IMG/VR virus record: IMGVR_UViG_3300050821_001002
Location: 1-22,820 of that record
Length of the DNA stretch: 22,820 bases
DNA from: a virus
Reading direction: 5' to 3' (one strand)
Below the pieces are notes generated by a model that saw only the letters and a program-made list of their open reading frames with translations, was not told the DNA's origin and did no database searches. Every line of letters begins with the position of its first letter. Position 1 is the first letter of the stretch. Made by a program: the position numbers and the translations under genes. Of the stretch, positions 2,779-9,199 are shown one piece after another.

Positions 2779-3309
2779 ATGGCTAGGGTCGAATTTAATC
2801 TGGAAGAACAGGTTCATCGCGTTGTCGCCGCCGTGCAGAACAGTTTGCTCGGCATGGTTCGGTATGATGCCCTTGTTCTTAGTCGAATTTGCGAAAGCCC
2901 TATCGAGGTCGCGCTTGGCGGCGCGATACTAATGCTCGATCGGATTGATCCCTTCACTAGGGGTCATGAGATTGCCATCGCTAGCAGCAAGGAGATACCT
3001 GATTACAAAGCAGAAAAGTGGCTCCTGGTCCCTCAATATGAGTGGCAGGATTTTAGGATCGACCTCGCTCTAAGGGTTCCTGAATATCGATTCAAGTGGG
3101 TTTTTATCGAGTGCGATGGTCATGATTTTCATGAGCGCACGAAAGAGCAGGCTGCACGAGATCGGCAAAAGGATCGGGAAATCCAAGCCTCAGGAATCCC
3201 GGTACTCCGATTTACCGGGTCTGAAATTCATCGCAATTTGGAGAGCTGCGCTGAACAGGTATTTCAATTTATAGAAGATCGTTTTGACGACTGGGTTGAT
3301 GCGCCGTGA
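2779..3309 (+). CDS. PD-(D/E)XK endonuclease (DUF559/Vsr-like), 176 aa
   Basis: The sequence follows the DUF559/very-short-patch-repair layout. An early Glu lies in ESPIE (39-43), then VPQYEW (84-89), RIDLAL (93-98) carrying the catalytic Asp, IECDGHDFH (110-118) as the E-x-DGH/H motif, a helix with RDRQKDRE (127-134), and VLRFTGSEI (142-150). Proteins of this fold cut DNA. The substrate here is unknown. By hand count GC is about 49 percent over the gene against nearer 60 percent in neighbouring late genes, suggesting later acquisition. It starts one base after the previous stop and its TGA overlaps the next GTG. Confidence 0.8.
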   Translation: MARVEFNLEEQVHRVVAAVQNSLLGMVRYDALVLSRICESPIEVALGGAILMLDRIDPFTRGHEIAIASSKEIPDYKAEKWLLVPQYEWQDFRIDLALRVPEYRFKWVFIECDGHDFHERTKEQAARDRQKDREIQASGIPVLRFTGSEIHRNLESCAEQVFQFIEDRFDDWVDAP

Positions 3310-4244
3310 GCGAGCGCGGTGTATTCGCTGTCGATCGTGGCATCTGGGATCACCCAGGGTTCGCCGACGAACCGTTTACGGAACGGGAAGCTTGGCAATG
3401 GCTGATCGGGGACGCGGCTTTTAAGGAGCGGATCAAACGCGTCGGGTCTGTGGTTGTCACGCTCCAGCGCGGGCAGTGCGCAAATTCGACCCGCTTCCTG
3501 CAAGAGAGATGGAAGTGGGGAAGTGAGACGCGCGTAAGGCGATTTTTGGAACGTCGAAAAATCGCCGCAGAGATCGTCGTAGATACCGACGCAGGTGTCA
3601 CGGTTGTAACTATCTGCAATTACAATAAATATCAACGCGTTTCATTACCGAGCGTCGCAGATATCGACGCACCAGGCGTCGCAGCGGCGTCGCAGCAGCG
3701 TCGCAAAATAGAAGACACTGAAACCAAGGAAACAGATTCAGAAGCTAAAGCTTCTGGCGCTGATGCGCCGGTCTACACGGATTCACGCCACGAGCTTTGG
3801 GGCGAAGGTGTTCCAATCCTGAAAAGCATGGGCGTCAGCGAAAAAGACGCTCGAGGCAACATCGGACGATGGCTGAAAACGATGCGCGACGACGCGCAGG
3901 GTGTGCTGAGCGCGATCCAGCGCGCTCGAGATAACCGCGTGCACGGTCCGATTCCATGGATCACGAACGCCCTCAAAGGACCGCAGTATGTCAACGCAAA
4001 TAGCCCTCCTCGAGCCAATCAAACTACCGGAGCCGCGCAGACCCGCGATTCTGCCGTCATTGCCGGTATGGGCAGAGCGCTTAACCAGCGCCGTGCGGAC
4101 AGAGCTGCAGCTAAATCCAGCGGGGACGAGCTTCGAGGACAACATTCTGGTCCTGCCGGCGAACCTGATGCCGAACCCGACGCAACGGCAGGCGATGGGC
4201 GATCATCTCGACAGCTTACGCTCTTGGCTGCGGGAAACGGGTGA
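3306..4244 (+). CDS. Phage winged-helix replication-type protein, 312 aa
   Basis: Residues 5-110 resemble the N-terminal helix-turn-helix domain of phage replication/DNA-binding proteins. Features are FAVDRGIWDHPGF at the start, then TLQRGQCANSTRFLQERW (52-69) and a recognition helix and wing around ETRVRRFLERRKIA (74-87). A polar linker (130-160) leads to a second helical part ending at GPIPWITNALKG (about 214-225), which looks like the natural family C-terminus. The last 85 residues are Ala/Arg/Gly/Asp-rich and overlap the next gene in another frame, so they may be an unselected extension. The start is GTG in a GTGA junction. A role in origin recognition or helicase recruitment is inferred from type and position only. 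Confidence 0.7.
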   Translation: MSERGVFAVDRGIWDHPGFADEPFTEREAWQWLIGDAAFKERIKRVGSVVVTLQRGQCANSTRFLQERWKWGSETRVRRFLERRKIAAEIVVDTDAGVTVVTICNYNKYQRVSLPSVADIDAPGVAAASQQRRKIEDTETKETDSEAKASGADAPVYTDSRHELWGEGVPILKSMGVSEKDARGNIGRWLKTMRDDAQGVLSAIQRARDNRVHGPIPWITNALKGPQYVNANSPPRANQTTGAAQTRDSAVIAGMGRALNQRRADRAAAKSSGDELRGQHSGPAGEPDAEPDATAGDGRSSRQLTLLAAGNG

Positions 4245-4773: not shown

Positions 4774-5021
4774 GACTGATCATTTTCGCAATCTATCTCG
4801 GGATAGGCGCGATGCTTCATGCGCTGTTTGTCGGCGCAACATTCGACTGGTCGTCCGCATGGACAATCGGCTGGTTGCTGGGTTGGCCGATCATGATCTT
4901 CATCAGCTTTTGGGCGGCTCTGATCGGAATCGCCGTGGCAATCGGGATCGTTGTTTGTTTATGGATGTGGCTGGAAAGCATAGCGGAATGGCGCGAGCGT
5001 CGCAGGAAGAAAAAGGCTTAG
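4770..5021 (+). CDS. Small membrane protein, 83 aa
   Basis: The protein has about three hydrophobic segments, near residues 2-22, 31-49 and 50-68, the last ending VVCLWMWL. A strongly basic cytoplasmic tail (RERRRKKKA) follows. The start forms an ATGA overlap with the preceding stop, and AGGAGG lies just upstream. It sits in the early/replication block rather than next to a lysin, so calling it a holin is not justified. Membrane anchoring of some early function or superinfection exclusion are possibilities without direct support. Confidence 0.75.
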   Translation: MRLIIFAIYLGIGAMLHALFVGATFDWSSAWTIGWLLGWPIMIFISFWAALIGIAVAIGIVVCLWMWLESIAEWRERRRKKKA

Positions 5022-5084
5022 TTTCACCGCACCACCGGCCCTGTTTCCACGCCGGTACGGTCATCAGAAAGCGGAGGAGGTTGA

Positions 5085-5408
5085 ATGGACGGCTTATTTG
5101 CCAACGTGGCGTGGAAGTGCACCGCCTGCGGGAAGCCGCCGGGGTGTGGCTGTTGGGTTAAGTGCGAGTGCGGGCACAGCCGTCACCGCGACGAGGAGTG
5201 CGGGAATAAGATTTGGCATATTTCAAAGCGGTTTGCAGAAGAAGCCGCCGACCTGATCGTTGAGGACATGGCCGAAAGCTACAAGCTGTTCCAGCGCGAA
5301 CACATGGCCGCCCGGCTCAAGCGAGCCGTGATACGGCAGACACAGCCGATCATCCTTGCGACCTTTGCGGGCGTGGAAGCCGCAGAAAGGGAGAGGGCGG
5401 GAACATGA
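5085..5408 (+). CDS. Cys-rich zinc-binding-like protein, 107 aa
   Basis: The family is unknown. GGAGGAGG lies 6 to 8 nt before the ATG. The N-terminal 40 residues contain Cys 12, 15, 21, 23, 27, 29 and 39 and His 31 and 34 (KCTACGKPPGCGCW then CECGHSRH), enough to bind two metal ions. Residues 45-107 are a helical, charged segment. A 63-nt gap separates it from the membrane-protein gene. The stop overlaps the next ATG as ATGA. Confidence 0.75.
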   Translation: MDGLFANVAWKCTACGKPPGCGCWVKCECGHSRHRDEECGNKIWHISKRFAEEAADLIVEDMAESYKLFQREHMAARLKRAVIRQTQPIILATFAGVEAAERERAGT

Positions 5409-5614
5409 TCCGTACATTGATCGAAATCACGTCGGAAACGACGTGGGATCACAACAGTCAATTGAGGGACACGCTCGATAAGCTTGGCTTTGAGCCGAAG
5501 CCTGGTGCGGATCACGTCAGATTTATGAACGACCTATGGCGAGAATTGGCGGATAGAGGGCTTGATCCGCAAAAACTTGTTGAAGCGCAACGAGAAAAAC
5601 GAGACGCCGCCTAA
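5405..5614 (+). CDS. Small soluble protein of unknown function, 69 aa
   Basis: The product is not recognised. The ATG is part of an ATGA overlap with the Cys-rich gene, so the pair is probably co-translated. The sequence is a short amphipathic protein with two predicted helices (QLRDTLDKLGF and MNDLWRELADRGL) and no cysteines or membrane segment. It is the last gene before an 88-nt gap that shows no clear promoter or hairpin. Confidence 0.65.
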   Translation: MIRTLIEITSETTWDHNSQLRDTLDKLGFEPKPGADHVRFMNDLWRELADRGLDPQKLVEAQREKRDAA

Positions 5615-5702
5615 ACACCCATCAACTTCCATTCCATAGCAGGGGCAGAGAACGTGGGACGACTGAATAGCTCGGCAAATTCCAATTAGAGGGCGGTATT
5701 AA

Positions 5703-6356
5703 ATGCTCGAGGCAACAGCAATGGCATCACCAAAGGTTCGACGGCCTCCAATTGAGGTCAAGCCCAGCGCAATTCCAAAGATGGAAACCGCCAAGGTTGC
5801 CCATCCCAGGCTGGAAGGTCACGTCGAGATCGTGCAGCGCGTGGTCGATACCATCGAAGTGATGCGAAAGCGCAAGCAATTGGGAGAGCGGGAATACCAG
5901 GCTGCCGACCATTACCGCACATGCTGGGCAGCGATTCATGGAGCCATGGGAGGGTCAATGGACTTTGATCGGCCTCGTGGCGGCTCGTTGCCGGGACAAC
6001 CGCCTGCACCCCATTACATGCTGGCCAGCGAAGCCGTCAGCTCGGTAAAAAAATATCTATACCCCAAGGACTACGCCGTCGTTCATCGCGTGTGCGCGCT
6101 CGGCATGACGATAGAACAGGCAACGGATCAGCTTTATTCACCGGCCAATAGATCGGCGCGAGAAGATTGTGGCCGCCGGCTTCGGGAAGGCCTTTCCCAA
6201 ATGGCGGACAGGTGGTTTCCTGAAAATAGAGGGGAGGGCAATCGCATGCGCAGCCATGTATCAGAACGGGCAACGGTGACGGATGTTGAATCCGTTCCGC
6301 AATCATCAAGTGTGGCGCATGCGACGAGGGATAGGGTTTATCGGGGTGAAAGATGA
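5703..6356 (+). CDS. Possible phage regulator (DUF6456-like), 217 aa
   Basis: The central part (residues about 55-165) has the pattern of helical alphaproteobacterial phage proteins thought to act as regulators. It shows LGEREYQAADHYRTCW, a Gly/Pro-rich linker, and a C-terminal helix-turn-helix-like run VVHRVCALGMTIEQATDQLY followed by GRRLREGLSQMADRWF. The similarity to DUF6456-type proteins is from memory and weak. The ATG at 5703 has GAGGG 8 nt upstream; an internal ATG at 5721 is the alternative. The 3' end overlaps, by 19 nt, the convergent minus-strand ribbon-helix-helix gene. Confidence 0.65.
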   Translation: MLEATAMASPKVRRPPIEVKPSAIPKMETAKVAHPRLEGHVEIVQRVVDTIEVMRKRKQLGEREYQAADHYRTCWAAIHGAMGGSMDFDRPRGGSLPGQPPAPHYMLASEAVSSVKKYLYPKDYAVVHRVCALGMTIEQATDQLYSPANRSAREDCGRRLREGLSQMADRWFPENRGEGNRMRSHVSERATVTDVESVPQSSSVAHATRDRVYRGER

Positions 6357-6553
6357 CGCTTCTTGATCCGCTCGCGGCGCTTCAGCTCGGTCTCAATTGC
6401 TTCTCGGATTAAATCTAGCCGATCCTCGCCCTCCTCAAGTGCCGCGTCCATGCGCGCCTTAGCGCCCTCTGGAAGGGTAAGGTTGACGTTCTCGGCCCAT
6501 AGTTTTTTGCGCCCCATCTTGCGGGGAATATCGCGTACATGAATTTCGGTCAA
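6338..6553 (-). CDS. Ribbon-helix-helix DNA-binding protein, 71 aa
   Basis: This is the only supported minus-strand gene. Residues 21-28 (ENVNLTLP) form the beta-strand that contacts DNA in MetJ/Arc-type repressors. Helix A follows (GAKARMDAAL), then helix B (RLDLIREAIETELKRRE), and a basic tail. I prefer the TTG start at 6553 because AAAGGTGG lies just upstream. The alternative ATG at 6517 has no such site and would give 59 aa. A perfect inverted repeat lies immediately upstream (6562-6605), the expected position for an autoregulated operator. No partner toxin is visible, so it looks like a repressor rather than half of a toxin-antitoxin pair. Confidence 0.75.
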   Translation of the reverse strand: MTEIHVRDIPRKMGRKKLWAENVNLTLPEGAKARMDAALEEGEDRLDLIREAIETELKRRERIKKRHLSPR

Positions 6554-6561
6554 ATTCCACC

Positions 6562-6605
6562 TTTATCGTGTACATGGTATTGACTTTTATCATGTACACG
6601 ATAAA
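6562..6605. promoter_or_regulatory. 15-bp perfect inverted repeat, likely operator
   Basis: The arms TTTATCGTGTACATG (6562-6576) and CATGTACACGATAAA (6591-6605) are exact reverse complements separated by 14 nt. Each arm carries its own TGTACA palindrome (6569-6574 and 6593-6598; centres 24 bp apart), suiting two dimers of a small repressor. GTACATG recurs at 6535-6541 inside the ribbon-helix-helix gene. The repeat lies between that gene and the divergent 6648 gene and overlaps the + strand promoter candidate. Ribbon-helix-helix proteins commonly bind such tandem palindromes. Binding here is inference. Confidence 0.75.
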
Positions 6606-6607
6606 TT
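6580..6607 (+). promoter_or_regulatory. Promoter candidate for the gene at 6648
   Basis: TTGACT at 6580-6585 and TAAATT at 6602-6607 are separated by 16 nt. The right operator arm fills most of the spacer and the edge of the -10, so a bound repressor would block RNA polymerase. Transcription would begin near 6614, downstream of the TTG at 6606 and upstream of the ATG at 6648, supporting the later start. Confidence 0.5.
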
Positions 6608-6647
6608 GCAAGGACGACGACTACAGAAATTGAGAGATGAGCAAAGC

Positions 6648-7031
6648 ATGAGTTGGCTGTATGGCGAGCCCGTCACCGGAGACATCGCGGACTTCCGTCA
6701 GGTGCGCATGGATTTTTGCTACGGCGCATCGAACGAATACATCATGCACAAAGATCACGTCGCGCGCTTTGTCGAAGCGAGCGTGAAGCTTCACCACACG
6801 CCCGGCATCAATCCAGCAAACAAAAACACCACTGCGCCGATCTGGCGCATCACCAGCGCCCCGCTGCACGGTTCTAGCTATTGGTGGACGACGCCTAGTC
6901 TCAAAGGGAACGACGATCCTGCGGGAGCGACAGTCGTCAATGGTGGCCCTTCGGAGACCGTTTTCGTTGACCGGGAATATGTCGATCGGATCAACCGCGA
7001 AGAGGATGAAATGGAAGCGGCGGGTGAATAG
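6648..7031 (+). CDS. Protein of unknown function under the operator, 127 aa
   Basis: The protein is not recognised. The ATG at 6648 is chosen because the TTG at 6606 lies upstream of the predicted transcription start; a GAGAG stretch near 6632 is the only upstream purine-rich site. The sequence is soluble and mixed, with RVRMDFCYG-like strand content (QVRMDFCYGASNEY), aromatic residues (SSYWWTTP) and an acidic C-terminus (REEDEMEAAGE). It is the first gene rightward of the divergent repressor, so it and the genes to 8096 may be the repressor's target operon. Confidence 0.65.
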   Translation: MSWLYGEPVTGDIADFRQVRMDFCYGASNEYIMHKDHVARFVEASVKLHHTPGINPANKNTTAPIWRITSAPLHGSSYWWTTPSLKGNDDPAGATVVNGGPSETVFVDREYVDRINREEDEMEAAGE

Positions 7032-7051
7032 GGATAATGCGGAGGTGCGAC

Positions 7052-7231
7052 ATGATGCGCTGGCTTGAACAATGGTGGTGCCCGCACATGGGCAAAACTA
7101 TCGCCGTCCCGCTTGTTCGGCAGAGGCAAGGCGAGCCGGATTTTGATGCCACGATATGCTGCGATTGCGGCAAGGTTTTGGTCCGCTCATGGACTGACAA
7201 TGCGGGCACAGAGGTAAAGGAAAGCACATGA
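7052..7231 (+). CDS. Small Trp/Cys protein, 59 aa
   Basis: GGAGG at 7041-7045 lies 6 nt before the ATG at 7052, which is therefore preferred over the ATG at 7037. The protein has an N-terminal MMRWLEQWWCPH and a C-terminal ICCDCGKVLVRSW, so four cysteines and a histidine could form a zinc ribbon. Similar short zinc-ribbon proteins are common in phage early regions. The function is unknown. The TGA overlaps the next ATG. Confidence 0.65.
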   Translation: MMRWLEQWWCPHMGKTIAVPLVRQRQGEPDFDATICCDCGKVLVRSWTDNAGTEVKEST

Positions 7232-7875
7232 CCGAAGCACCAAAGCAGCGCGTGGAACTTACGGCACCGCGCCGCGACGGCCGCAGTGCGCTCCAATGGG
7301 ACAAGGAAGCGCGGGCGCTAAAGACATTCGATCCTAATCCCTCAAAGGTCGTTTGGGATCGGACACAGAAGCGTCCCGCCGGCTCAAATGCCGAAGAGTG
7401 GCAATTGTTCTTGTCGGAATATCTTGAAAGCCGTCCAGCGACACCGGCCGCGTTAACTTACGTCGCCGTCCAGATCGCCGAAGCGATTGAAGCGGCGGCA
7501 AACAAGCCTCCCTGCGGGGAGTGCCACCTCAAGCCCGGCGAAACTTGCGACATCTGTCGAAAGCAAGGGCAGGCCCTTCTAACGATTGCTGACATCGCCG
7601 AAGGCAGCGGGACCGTCAACAGCCTGCCTCACATCGCCAAGGTCGCGCGGGGTGCCTGCGCATGTTTGCAGCCCGGCGGCAATCCGCTCGGCAATTGCGA
7701 AGCGTGCGCTGGAGACGGCGTGCAGCAACCCGATGGCGGCGGATGCGAGAGATGCAACGGCACCGGAAAGTCCTTGAACCAAGAGGCCAAGGAACATCCG
7801 CCGTTTGACAACCCGCGAGATCCATACGCTTCGCCTGATCGGGTACCTCCCGAATATCCGAGAGAGAAGTCATGA
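7228..7875 (+). CDS. Cys-rich protein with DnaJ-like zinc-finger repeats, 215 aa
   Basis: The N-terminal 90 residues are a soluble, partly helical segment. After residue 95 five Cys pairs appear: C96/C99, C107/C110, C144/C146, C157/C160 and C173/C176. CEACAGDG (157-164) and CERCNGTG (173-180) match the CxxCxGxG unit of the DnaJ central zinc domain. There is no J domain (no HPD), so it is not a DnaJ chaperone, only a protein using that zinc module. The start is in an ATGA junction, as is its stop. The role is unknown; protein or nucleic-acid contact through the zinc modules is possible. Confidence 0.75.
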   Translation: MTEAPKQRVELTAPRRDGRSALQWDKEARALKTFDPNPSKVVWDRTQKRPAGSNAEEWQLFLSEYLESRPATPAALTYVAVQIAEAIEAAANKPPCGECHLKPGETCDICRKQGQALLTIADIAEGSGTVNSLPHIAKVARGACACLQPGGNPLGNCEACAGDGVQQPDGGGCERCNGTGKSLNQEAKEHPPFDNPRDPYASPDRVPPEYPREKS

Positions 7876-8096
7876 CCCCTGAAGTGGTCGTCAGCTACGA
7901 GAGCATCAAAATTCGCTTCGGCGGAATATTGCACGTGCATTTGCAGCGACCGATCTTTGCAGTGCAGTCGTGGGTACAGGAGCGGCAGGTAAAATATACA
8001 ATTCAGTACACGACCGCTGGCGGCGACGTGACATCCGAATACGACGACCGTGAGAAGTGGGCATCGATTTTGACTGCTCTCGACAAAATACTCTGA
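7872..8096 (+). CDS. Small beta-rich protein of unknown function, 74 aa
   Basis: The product is not recognised. It begins in an ATGA overlap with the Cys-rich gene and reads as alternating hydrophobic strands (GGILHVHLQRPIFAVQSW, then KYTIQYTTAGGDVTSEY) with a C-terminal helix (WASILTALDKIL). There are no cysteines or membrane segments. It is the last gene before a 174-nt gap holding the late promoter candidate. Confidence 0.65.
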   Translation: MTPEVVVSYESIKIRFGGILHVHLQRPIFAVQSWVQERQVKYTIQYTTAGGDVTSEYDDREKWASILTALDKIL

Positions 8097-8176
8097 TCGG
8101 CTCTCGCGAACTGTCACGTCGGTAAATGGGCTTCGTAACCCTTGACAATGCCCCGTGATTAAGTGGCGGTCGTCTC

Positions 8177-8206
8177 TTGACAACCCCCGGGCTCAAGCTC
8201 CATAAA
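8177..8206 (+). promoter_or_regulatory. Candidate promoter of the late block
   Basis: A perfect TTGACA at 8177-8182 is followed after 18 nt by CATAAA at 8201-8206. It lies in the only sizeable gap before the packaging and head genes, so it could drive the whole late block. The octamer CTTGACAA at 8176-8183 also occurs at 8141-8148, 35 bp upstream, but the first copy has no usable -10. That repeat might be an activator site. Confidence 0.5.
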
Positions 8207-8270
8207 AGCAGAAGATGATTTGCGCCGCCCCGGGGAAACTCGATGGGCGACTTTTTCGTGGGAAATCGCT

Positions 8271-8504
8271 ATGGGCGATGTCGTTAAATTATTCCACGGG
8301 CGCGTGAAGCGCGGCAAGAAATTGCCCAAGCCCGTTTTGTGCAAGGAATGTGACGAGCCGATTGAGGCTGCGAGATTGCAGGCCTTGGCTGGTGATATCC
8401 TCAAATGCACGCGCTGCATTTCCTGCCAACGCGCTATGGAAAGGCGCTTTAACCGCGAAATGGATGCGGTGCGCGACTATCAAACGGTGCAGATCATCCG
8501 GTGA
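8271..8504 (+). CDS. DksA/TraR-type C4 zinc-finger protein, 77 aa
   Basis: The family pattern is clear: C24-x2-C27, then PIEAARLQAL (30-39, the conserved P-x5-R-x2-AL stretch), then C46-x2-C49. A further Cys at 52 gives an extra CISC. DksA/TraR proteins bind in the RNA polymerase secondary channel and change promoter output, and phages carry short versions. At 77 aa it is TraR-sized. The ATG at 8271 is chosen over a TTG at 8220, which would prepend an unrelated Arg-rich segment. Its stop overlaps the next GTG. Its place as the first gene of the late block suggests a transcriptional role there (inference). Confidence 0.8.
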   Translation: MGDVVKLFHGRVKRGKKLPKPVLCKECDEPIEAARLQALAGDILKCTRCISCQRAMERRFNREMDAVRDYQTVQIIR

Positions 8505-9199
8505 AAATCCTGATCTGCGTTCCGGCCTTCGGCCACCAAATGAACTCGCAGACAGCCGTAAGCCTGATTGCCCTGACCAAGGAATTAGCCGATCGGCAGA
8601 TATTCGGCGGCTGCAATGCGGTTTCATTTCCGGATTTAATCGACCTTCGTAATATCTTCCTGACGTTATGGTTCGACCGGTCCGACGCCACGCATTTGCT
8701 GTTGGTCGATGCGGATATGCAATTCGAGCCCCAATTGGTTGGGGATATGTTGCTGGCGGACAAGCCGTTGGTGGGCTGCATTTACCCAAAGAAGCGCTTG
8801 CCGCTATCCTGGGTAGGATCACCGCTGACGCCGCCGGCCGTACCAGAGGACAATCTGCTTGAGCTGGAATACATCGGCGCAGGCGTCATGCTCATTCGCC
8901 GGGACGCAATCGAGGCAATGATCGCCTTTGGCAAGGTGGAGATCGAAACCGATCTGACCAAGACTGCCTTAGCCGGATTGCTGGAGCCTCAAGGCGCAAA
9001 ACGCATTATCAAGGGATTCGACAAGCTGACCAACGAGGAGGGACGATATCTCTCCGAGGATTTCTCGTTCTGCCATCGCTACAGACAGGCAGGCGGCAAG
9101 GTCTATGCCGTCATCAACCATCAAGTGACGCACCTCGGCATTTACCCGTTTACGGGGCGTTACAGCGATATGTATGCGATGAAGGAAGCGGCGGAATGA
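8501..9199 (+). CDS. GT-A fold glycosyltransferase-like protein, 232 aa
   Basis: Residues 1-10 (MKILICVPAF) and 66-75 (LLLVDADMQF) match the GT-A nucleotide-sugar fold; DAD at 70-72 is the DxD-type metal/sugar-nucleotide site. R50-N51 and the later GAGVMLIRRDA, SEDFSFCHRYRQAGGKVY and THLG are also typical of family 2-like phage enzymes. Such proteins transfer sugars to DNA bases, virion proteins or host surface glycans. Which applies here is unknown. A GTG start lies in a GTGA junction with the zinc-finger gene and an ATGA junction follows, so it is part of the packaging operon. Confidence 0.8.
   Translation: MKILICVPAFGHQMNSQTAVSLIALTKELADRQIFGGCNAVSFPDLIDLRNIFLTLWFDRSDATHLLLVDADMQFEPQLVGDMLLADKPLVGCIYPKKRLPLSWVGSPLTPPAVPEDNLLELEYIGAGVMLIRRDAIEAMIAFGKVEIETDLTKTALAGLLEPQGAKRIIKGFDKLTNEEGRYLSEDFSFCHRYRQAGGKVYAVINHQVTHLGIYPFTGRYSDMYAMKEAAE

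Follow-up and report, generated by a model that had tools for sequence, protein, structure and literature searches.

A predicted phage ribbon-helix-helix repressor whose strand residues covary with its operators beside a variable divergent operon

The stretch of DNA analysed here (the window) is a virus record of 22.8 kb (22,820 nucleotides), with replication-type genes on its left and terminase and capsid genes on its right; comparison of the whole window with phages by megablast gave no match. A predicted ribbon-helix-helix (RHH) repressor gene encoding 71 aa occupies 6338-6553 on the minus strand, with a TTG start at 6553 preceded by AAGGTGG, and the list of open reading frames is consistent with the claim of an earlier, sequence-only reading that this is the only minus-strand gene. 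A convergent gene at 5703-6356 overlaps its 3′ end by 19 bases (6338-6356). The first divergent gene, at 6648-7031 on the plus strand, encodes 127 aa of no known family; three further plus-strand genes in the list (7037-7231, 7228-7875 and 7872-8096), presumed to belong to the divergent operon, have no assigned function, and family searches found no regulator among the window's divergent genes. Elsewhere in the window, the labels for 679-1425 conflict (a DNA polymerase III beta-clamp central domain in Pfam versus a RusA-like resolvase in PHROG), and 2779-3309 carries an MTES_1575-type restriction endonuclease-like domain (Pfam E 5e-11).

A Pfam search with the 71-aa protein gave no match of its own. 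Searches of viral and genome contigs found about 50 relatives, and phage and plasmid collections added more; these sit in phages, prophages and rhizobial plasmids, several of them in bacterial genome contigs. We built an alignment, which was clean, and a profile from 38 relatives. The top matches of this profile were two solved RHH-type proteins, a CopG-family regulator and YiiF (7by2 and 2k5j; E 0.008 and 0.024), whose strands and helices aligned with it in register. By sequence alone the RHH assignment is weak, the best E being 0.008. The alignment places a beta-strand at about residues 22-28, and an AlphaFold model (mean pLDDT 80) has an extended stretch followed by two helices, at 31-37 and 45-68; it is a model of a single chain, so the two-stranded sheet is beyond its reach. 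Together they give the short strand and two helices within about 45 residues that characterize the RHH superfamily, and the covariation of residues 24, 22 and 26 described below suggests that here, as in that superfamily, alternate strand residues set the operator bases. The lone Foldseek match was the RHH antitoxin ParD2, which was not significant. One relative, from Sinorhizobium, carries a ribbon-helix-helix annotation, and some relatives match PHROG 31631, 13890 or 30270, phage families without a stated function. The protein had been described as MetJ/Arc-type; comparison strongly supports the RHH part of that description and not the MetJ part, for the nearest solved relatives are of the CopG/YiiF type and MetJ was absent from the Pfam and solved-structure matches.

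Upstream of this gene, the arms TTTATCGTGTACATG (6562-6576) and CATGTACACGATAAA (6591-6605) are exact reverse complements, as the sequence-only reading had reported for its 15-bp inverted repeat, and with one mismatch allowed the repeat grows to 18 nt per arm. The 20-bp palindrome TTTATCRTGTACAYGATAAA is present in two copies in the window, with zero and three mismatches, and is absent from all 100 dinucleotide shuffles. Each arm forms one half of a separate palindrome, so two near-palindromic operators describe the sequence better than one inverted repeat does. Predicted operator O1 has its 14-bp core, ATCATGTACACGAT, at 6589-6602 within a full palindrome at 6586-6605, and lies between the boxes of both promoters described below; predicted operator O2 has its core, ATCGTGTACATGGT, at 6565-6578 within a full site at 6562-6581, its centre 24 bp from that of O1 (neither site is assigned to a strand). 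The window holds no further copies of the palindrome, and the search for more TGTACA-type sites that had been proposed earlier found no others there, nor a second cluster in the genomes of related phages.

The sequence TTGACT-N16-TAAATT (6580-6585 and 6602-6607, spacer 16) lies where a divergent promoter had been proposed, and is the sole plus-strand sigma-70-like match in 5600-8700; the same scan gave one minus-strand match, at 8317-8288. Such matches average 1.6 in shuffles, and the consensus match alone is therefore weak proof of a promoter. Comparison with relatives, in which the TTGAC box between O1 and O2 is kept in nearly all, strongly supports this divergent promoter (6580-6607, plus strand). 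On the minus strand, a putative RHH promoter at 6584-6611 (TTGCAA-N16-TAAAAG) is in itself a poor consensus match; its assignment is based on relatives with TTGAA-N17-TATGA or TTGACT-N17-CTATAG. When relatives are anchored on O1, TTGAA or TTGCTG stands 17 nt ahead of TAT, with O1 held in the spacer of this RHH promoter, and on the other strand TTGAC, the box of the divergent promoter, stands between O1 and O2. The aligned sequences further read as placing O1 within the divergent-promoter spacer as well in the class with a GTAC centre, and, in the class spaced at 34 bp, the divergent -10 within O1. O2 lies directly against the divergent -35 box, on its upstream side. We also weighed a leaderless transcript that would arise from the TTGAC at the RHH start, and dropped the idea, since the -10 positions are poor and the SD-like AAGGTG before the TTG start is conserved in most relatives with the extended N terminus.

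This control region, with O1 within the RHH promoter and the divergent TTGAC between O1 and O2, recurs in almost all relatives. Comparison strongly supports the operators as well: upstream of nearly all the RHH genes lie from two to four palindromes, all of one class at a given locus, against 0.14 sites of the flank pattern expected by chance per shuffled 150-bp upstream stretch. The pattern that placed most of the sites constrained only the flanks and left the central bases free; an automatic palindrome-pair score demanded too much symmetry and missed many sites, so flank-based sites were used instead, and some positions were curated by eye (for example L012, L013 and L020), so that site choice was not fully automatic. 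The O1-O2 spacings vary widely; values of about 24, 34 and 45 bp hint at helical phasing of the two sites, which is not claimed, since spacings of 27 and 39 bp occur too. Operators were absent upstream of the RHH gene in L028 and in the distant L164. In two Ensifer genomes (L017 and L018, about 5001-5167) the RHH remnants are frameshifted and the operators gone. Second copies also occur: L004 has a fragment comprising the helical part only (3363-3449), about 1.6 kb from the intact copy, and L025 has a more distant relative on the opposite strand of the same phage record (6600-6761). A relative on a Sinorhizobium americanum plasmid (L049) has queuosine-pathway genes and a dpdB gene nearby, an arrangement known from DNA-modification clusters, and another is found on many S. 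meliloti pSymA plasmids, with GATATC-centred operators in L050.

We compared each protein column with the central four bases of the operator across 36 loci (L045, L048 and L050 were left out). The outward beta-strand residues 24, 22 and 26 ranked first, second and third among 46 columns for information on the operator centre, and residue 24 gave an MI of 1.77, compared with 0.34 when shuffled. N24 accompanies a GTAC centre in 10 of 10 loci, the group to which the window belongs; H24 goes with GCAC (2 loci), Q24 with ATAC (2 loci) and T24 with ACAT (11 loci, 3 of which show ATAT at one site), and L24 goes with ATAT in 10 of 11 loci, the exception being L010 with ATAC. For 14 loci fetched later, the proteins were read first and the DNA afterwards. 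Three of the four new T24 proteins had ACAT/ATGT centres (L174 at one of its two sites), the fourth, L152, departing from the code with ACTT/AGGT, and all five proteins with P22, L24 and R26, a class known from L048 and L050, had ATAT centres inside GATATC. The distant L164 has N24 yet no operator, and the residue sets of some other new loci allowed no prediction. A tree from which the strand was left out requires at least 9 changes of residue 24 and at least 10 of the operator centre; this tree is poorly resolved, and independent pairs are too few for a significant sign test. Relatedness inflates the covariation, and shared descent contributes to it, but shared descent alone would not be expected to single out columns 22, 24 and 26. 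The RHH protein AmrZ likewise contacts DNA through three alternate strand residues, Lys18, Val20 and Arg22 (PMC3325190).

A third predicted operator, O3, lies inside the RHH gene itself, at 6530-6543 over codons 4-8 (minus strand, TTCATGTACGCGAT). Relatives with a TTG start have a 12-codon N-terminal extension of fixed length, and O3 is usual among them: in most of these extended relatives, the 14-mer whose centre lies 19 nt before codon 13 ranks first or joint first in similarity to O1/O2 of the same locus. The best match peaks one base away in L005, whose sites the O3 test placed one base off, lowering its own-match score, and O3 is absent from L006, L014, L030 and L049. The similarity of O3 to its own O1/O2 exceeded that to swapped operators in all but 57 of 20,000 permutations, a figure that still includes similarity by descent, and the new loci show the same pattern. 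The peptide encoded by O3 follows the operator class (HVR, HAH, RIH, HTY, RTY or PIS), and O3 appears, from these comparisons, to dictate the N-terminal peptide of the repressor. A constraint from DNA binding would here be built into the sequence of a protein.

The genes facing this control region differ from phage to phage. Pairwise blastp among the first divergent genes of 37 loci gave no match at 1e-3, and a few genes deeper on the divergent side are common to small groups of loci. This cargo mostly has no family match; HNH endonuclease, integrase and GapR-like families were matched by single members only, the integrase being the first divergent gene in L046, and no anti-CRISPR family appeared in these general family searches. 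The RHH gene is the only compared window gene common to the examined RHH loci, except that the 9561-10046 gene has a weak match in L019. Across phage records of roughly 9-70 kb, class-specific operator clusters occur only at the RHH locus, bar a few isolated one-mismatch matches. Terminase relatives L051-L053 have the window's packaging genes, and L051 and L052 also have the 8501 gene, upstream of which L051 carries about 2.4 kb of other small genes. The exact operator was found in 0 of 80 terminase-relative loci, many of which are fragments in which its absence is only partly tested. Because the divergent genes are unrelated between phages and terminase relatives lack the operators, the operator-RHH cassette seems to travel as one unit whose cargo varies.

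Taken together, the protein is very probably a local, autoregulated repressor of an exchangeable divergent operon. Sequence comparison shows the parts of the system and how they are conserved, the covariation between protein and operators, and the confinement to one locus; binding, the direction of regulation and timing we infer as follows. RHH dimers would insert their two-stranded beta-sheet, through residues 22, 24 and 26, into O1, O2 and O3. The promoters of the RHH gene and of the divergent operon at 6648-8096 would run antiparallel and overlap almost completely, with O1 between the -35 and -10 boxes of each; occupation of O1, together with that of O2 beside the divergent -35, would block both, and O3 would add a further site where the RHH gene starts. 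Both promoters would be free in a cell that lacks the RHH protein, and both would be turned down as the protein builds up, giving perhaps a burst on entry followed by shut-off, or silence in a lysogen.

The sequence-only reading had seen in this locus the layout of a genetic switch. In its strongest form this would be a bistable lysis-lysogeny switch in which the RHH protein acts as immunity repressor and one of the divergent genes encodes a counter-regulator. The overlap of the promoters, the shared operators, the relatives in bacterial genome contigs and the integrase of L046 fit such a switch, but different loci have unrelated first divergent genes and no divergent gene of the window matches a regulator, the StopSmel relative has a separate annotated c repressor and Ner nearby, and the phages searched have no operator clusters at other promoters; we consider it quite unlikely. 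An autoregulated repressor of variable cargo fits better, because only one regulator is present, family searches found no opposing repressor, and homology common to the divergent genes of different phages is lacking. To call the locus a genetic switch goes further than the evidence. The position of O2 against the upstream side of the divergent -35 is one open to activators, and the protein might stimulate the divergent operon from there while repressing its own gene. Binding at O1, inside the divergent promoter, would however be expected to block polymerase, which makes this dual role improbable.

Many RHH proteins are antitoxins, and the operators might then reflect the usual autoregulation of a toxin-antitoxin operon. 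In favour of this stands the one Foldseek match, to the ParD2 antitoxin and not significant; against it, the window's RHH gene is followed by no partner gene on its strand, open reading frames downstream of the RHH genes are shared between loci only within two related pairs, the first divergent genes have no common family, and the protein is short, with little past the second helix; an antitoxin is very unlikely. Finally, a strong inverted repeat between two genes could be a terminator or an RNA structure unrelated to the protein, but no terminator was flagged there, the sites covary with protein residues and their spacing varies widely among relatives, and we give this explanation almost no weight.

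The preferred reading, an autoregulated repressor of exchangeable genes, can be set beside known systems; the literature searched contained no published description of this RHH family. Arc and Mnt of phage P22 (immI), like the predicted repressor here, are small RHH repressors of phage origin that have operators. In P22, immI governs one defined gene set (antirepressor), whereas here the cargo varies from phage to phage and the repressor's own codons contain a third operator. Bacterial anti-CRISPR-associated (Aca) proteins, too, are small repressors of early, variable small genes. Viral Aca regulators are small repressors thought to silence such genes through a shared regulatory sequence (PMC11065993). 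Unlike Aca8, a predicted winged helix-turn-helix protein (PMC11065993), the regulator here is of the RHH type and is encoded divergently to the operon, and none of the cargo genes has a known anti-defence role. It is possible, though we hold this only tentatively, that a mobile cassette of alphaproteobacterial phages, with its own one-residue code, fronts exchangeable host-takeover or anti-defence genes, and that its operator could be used to find them, as Aca proteins are. More generally, a conserved cassette with unrelated cargo offers a route to the discovery of early or accessory genes of phages in rhizobia and related bacteria, and some 40 natural pairs of repressor and operator, with a single residue following four bases, make a testable RHH recognition code. 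As summarized in PMC3325190, a short N-terminal stretch sets the specificity of Arc and Mnt (Knight and Sauer 1989, cited there). The RHH-type AmrZ represses its own promoter through two sites, with three alternate strand residues contacting bases (PMC3325190), and controls multiple genes elsewhere, unlike the single locus with overlapping divergent promoters described here. The parts themselves are of known kinds; what is new is the recognition code, the placing of an operator inside the repressor gene, and the modular use.
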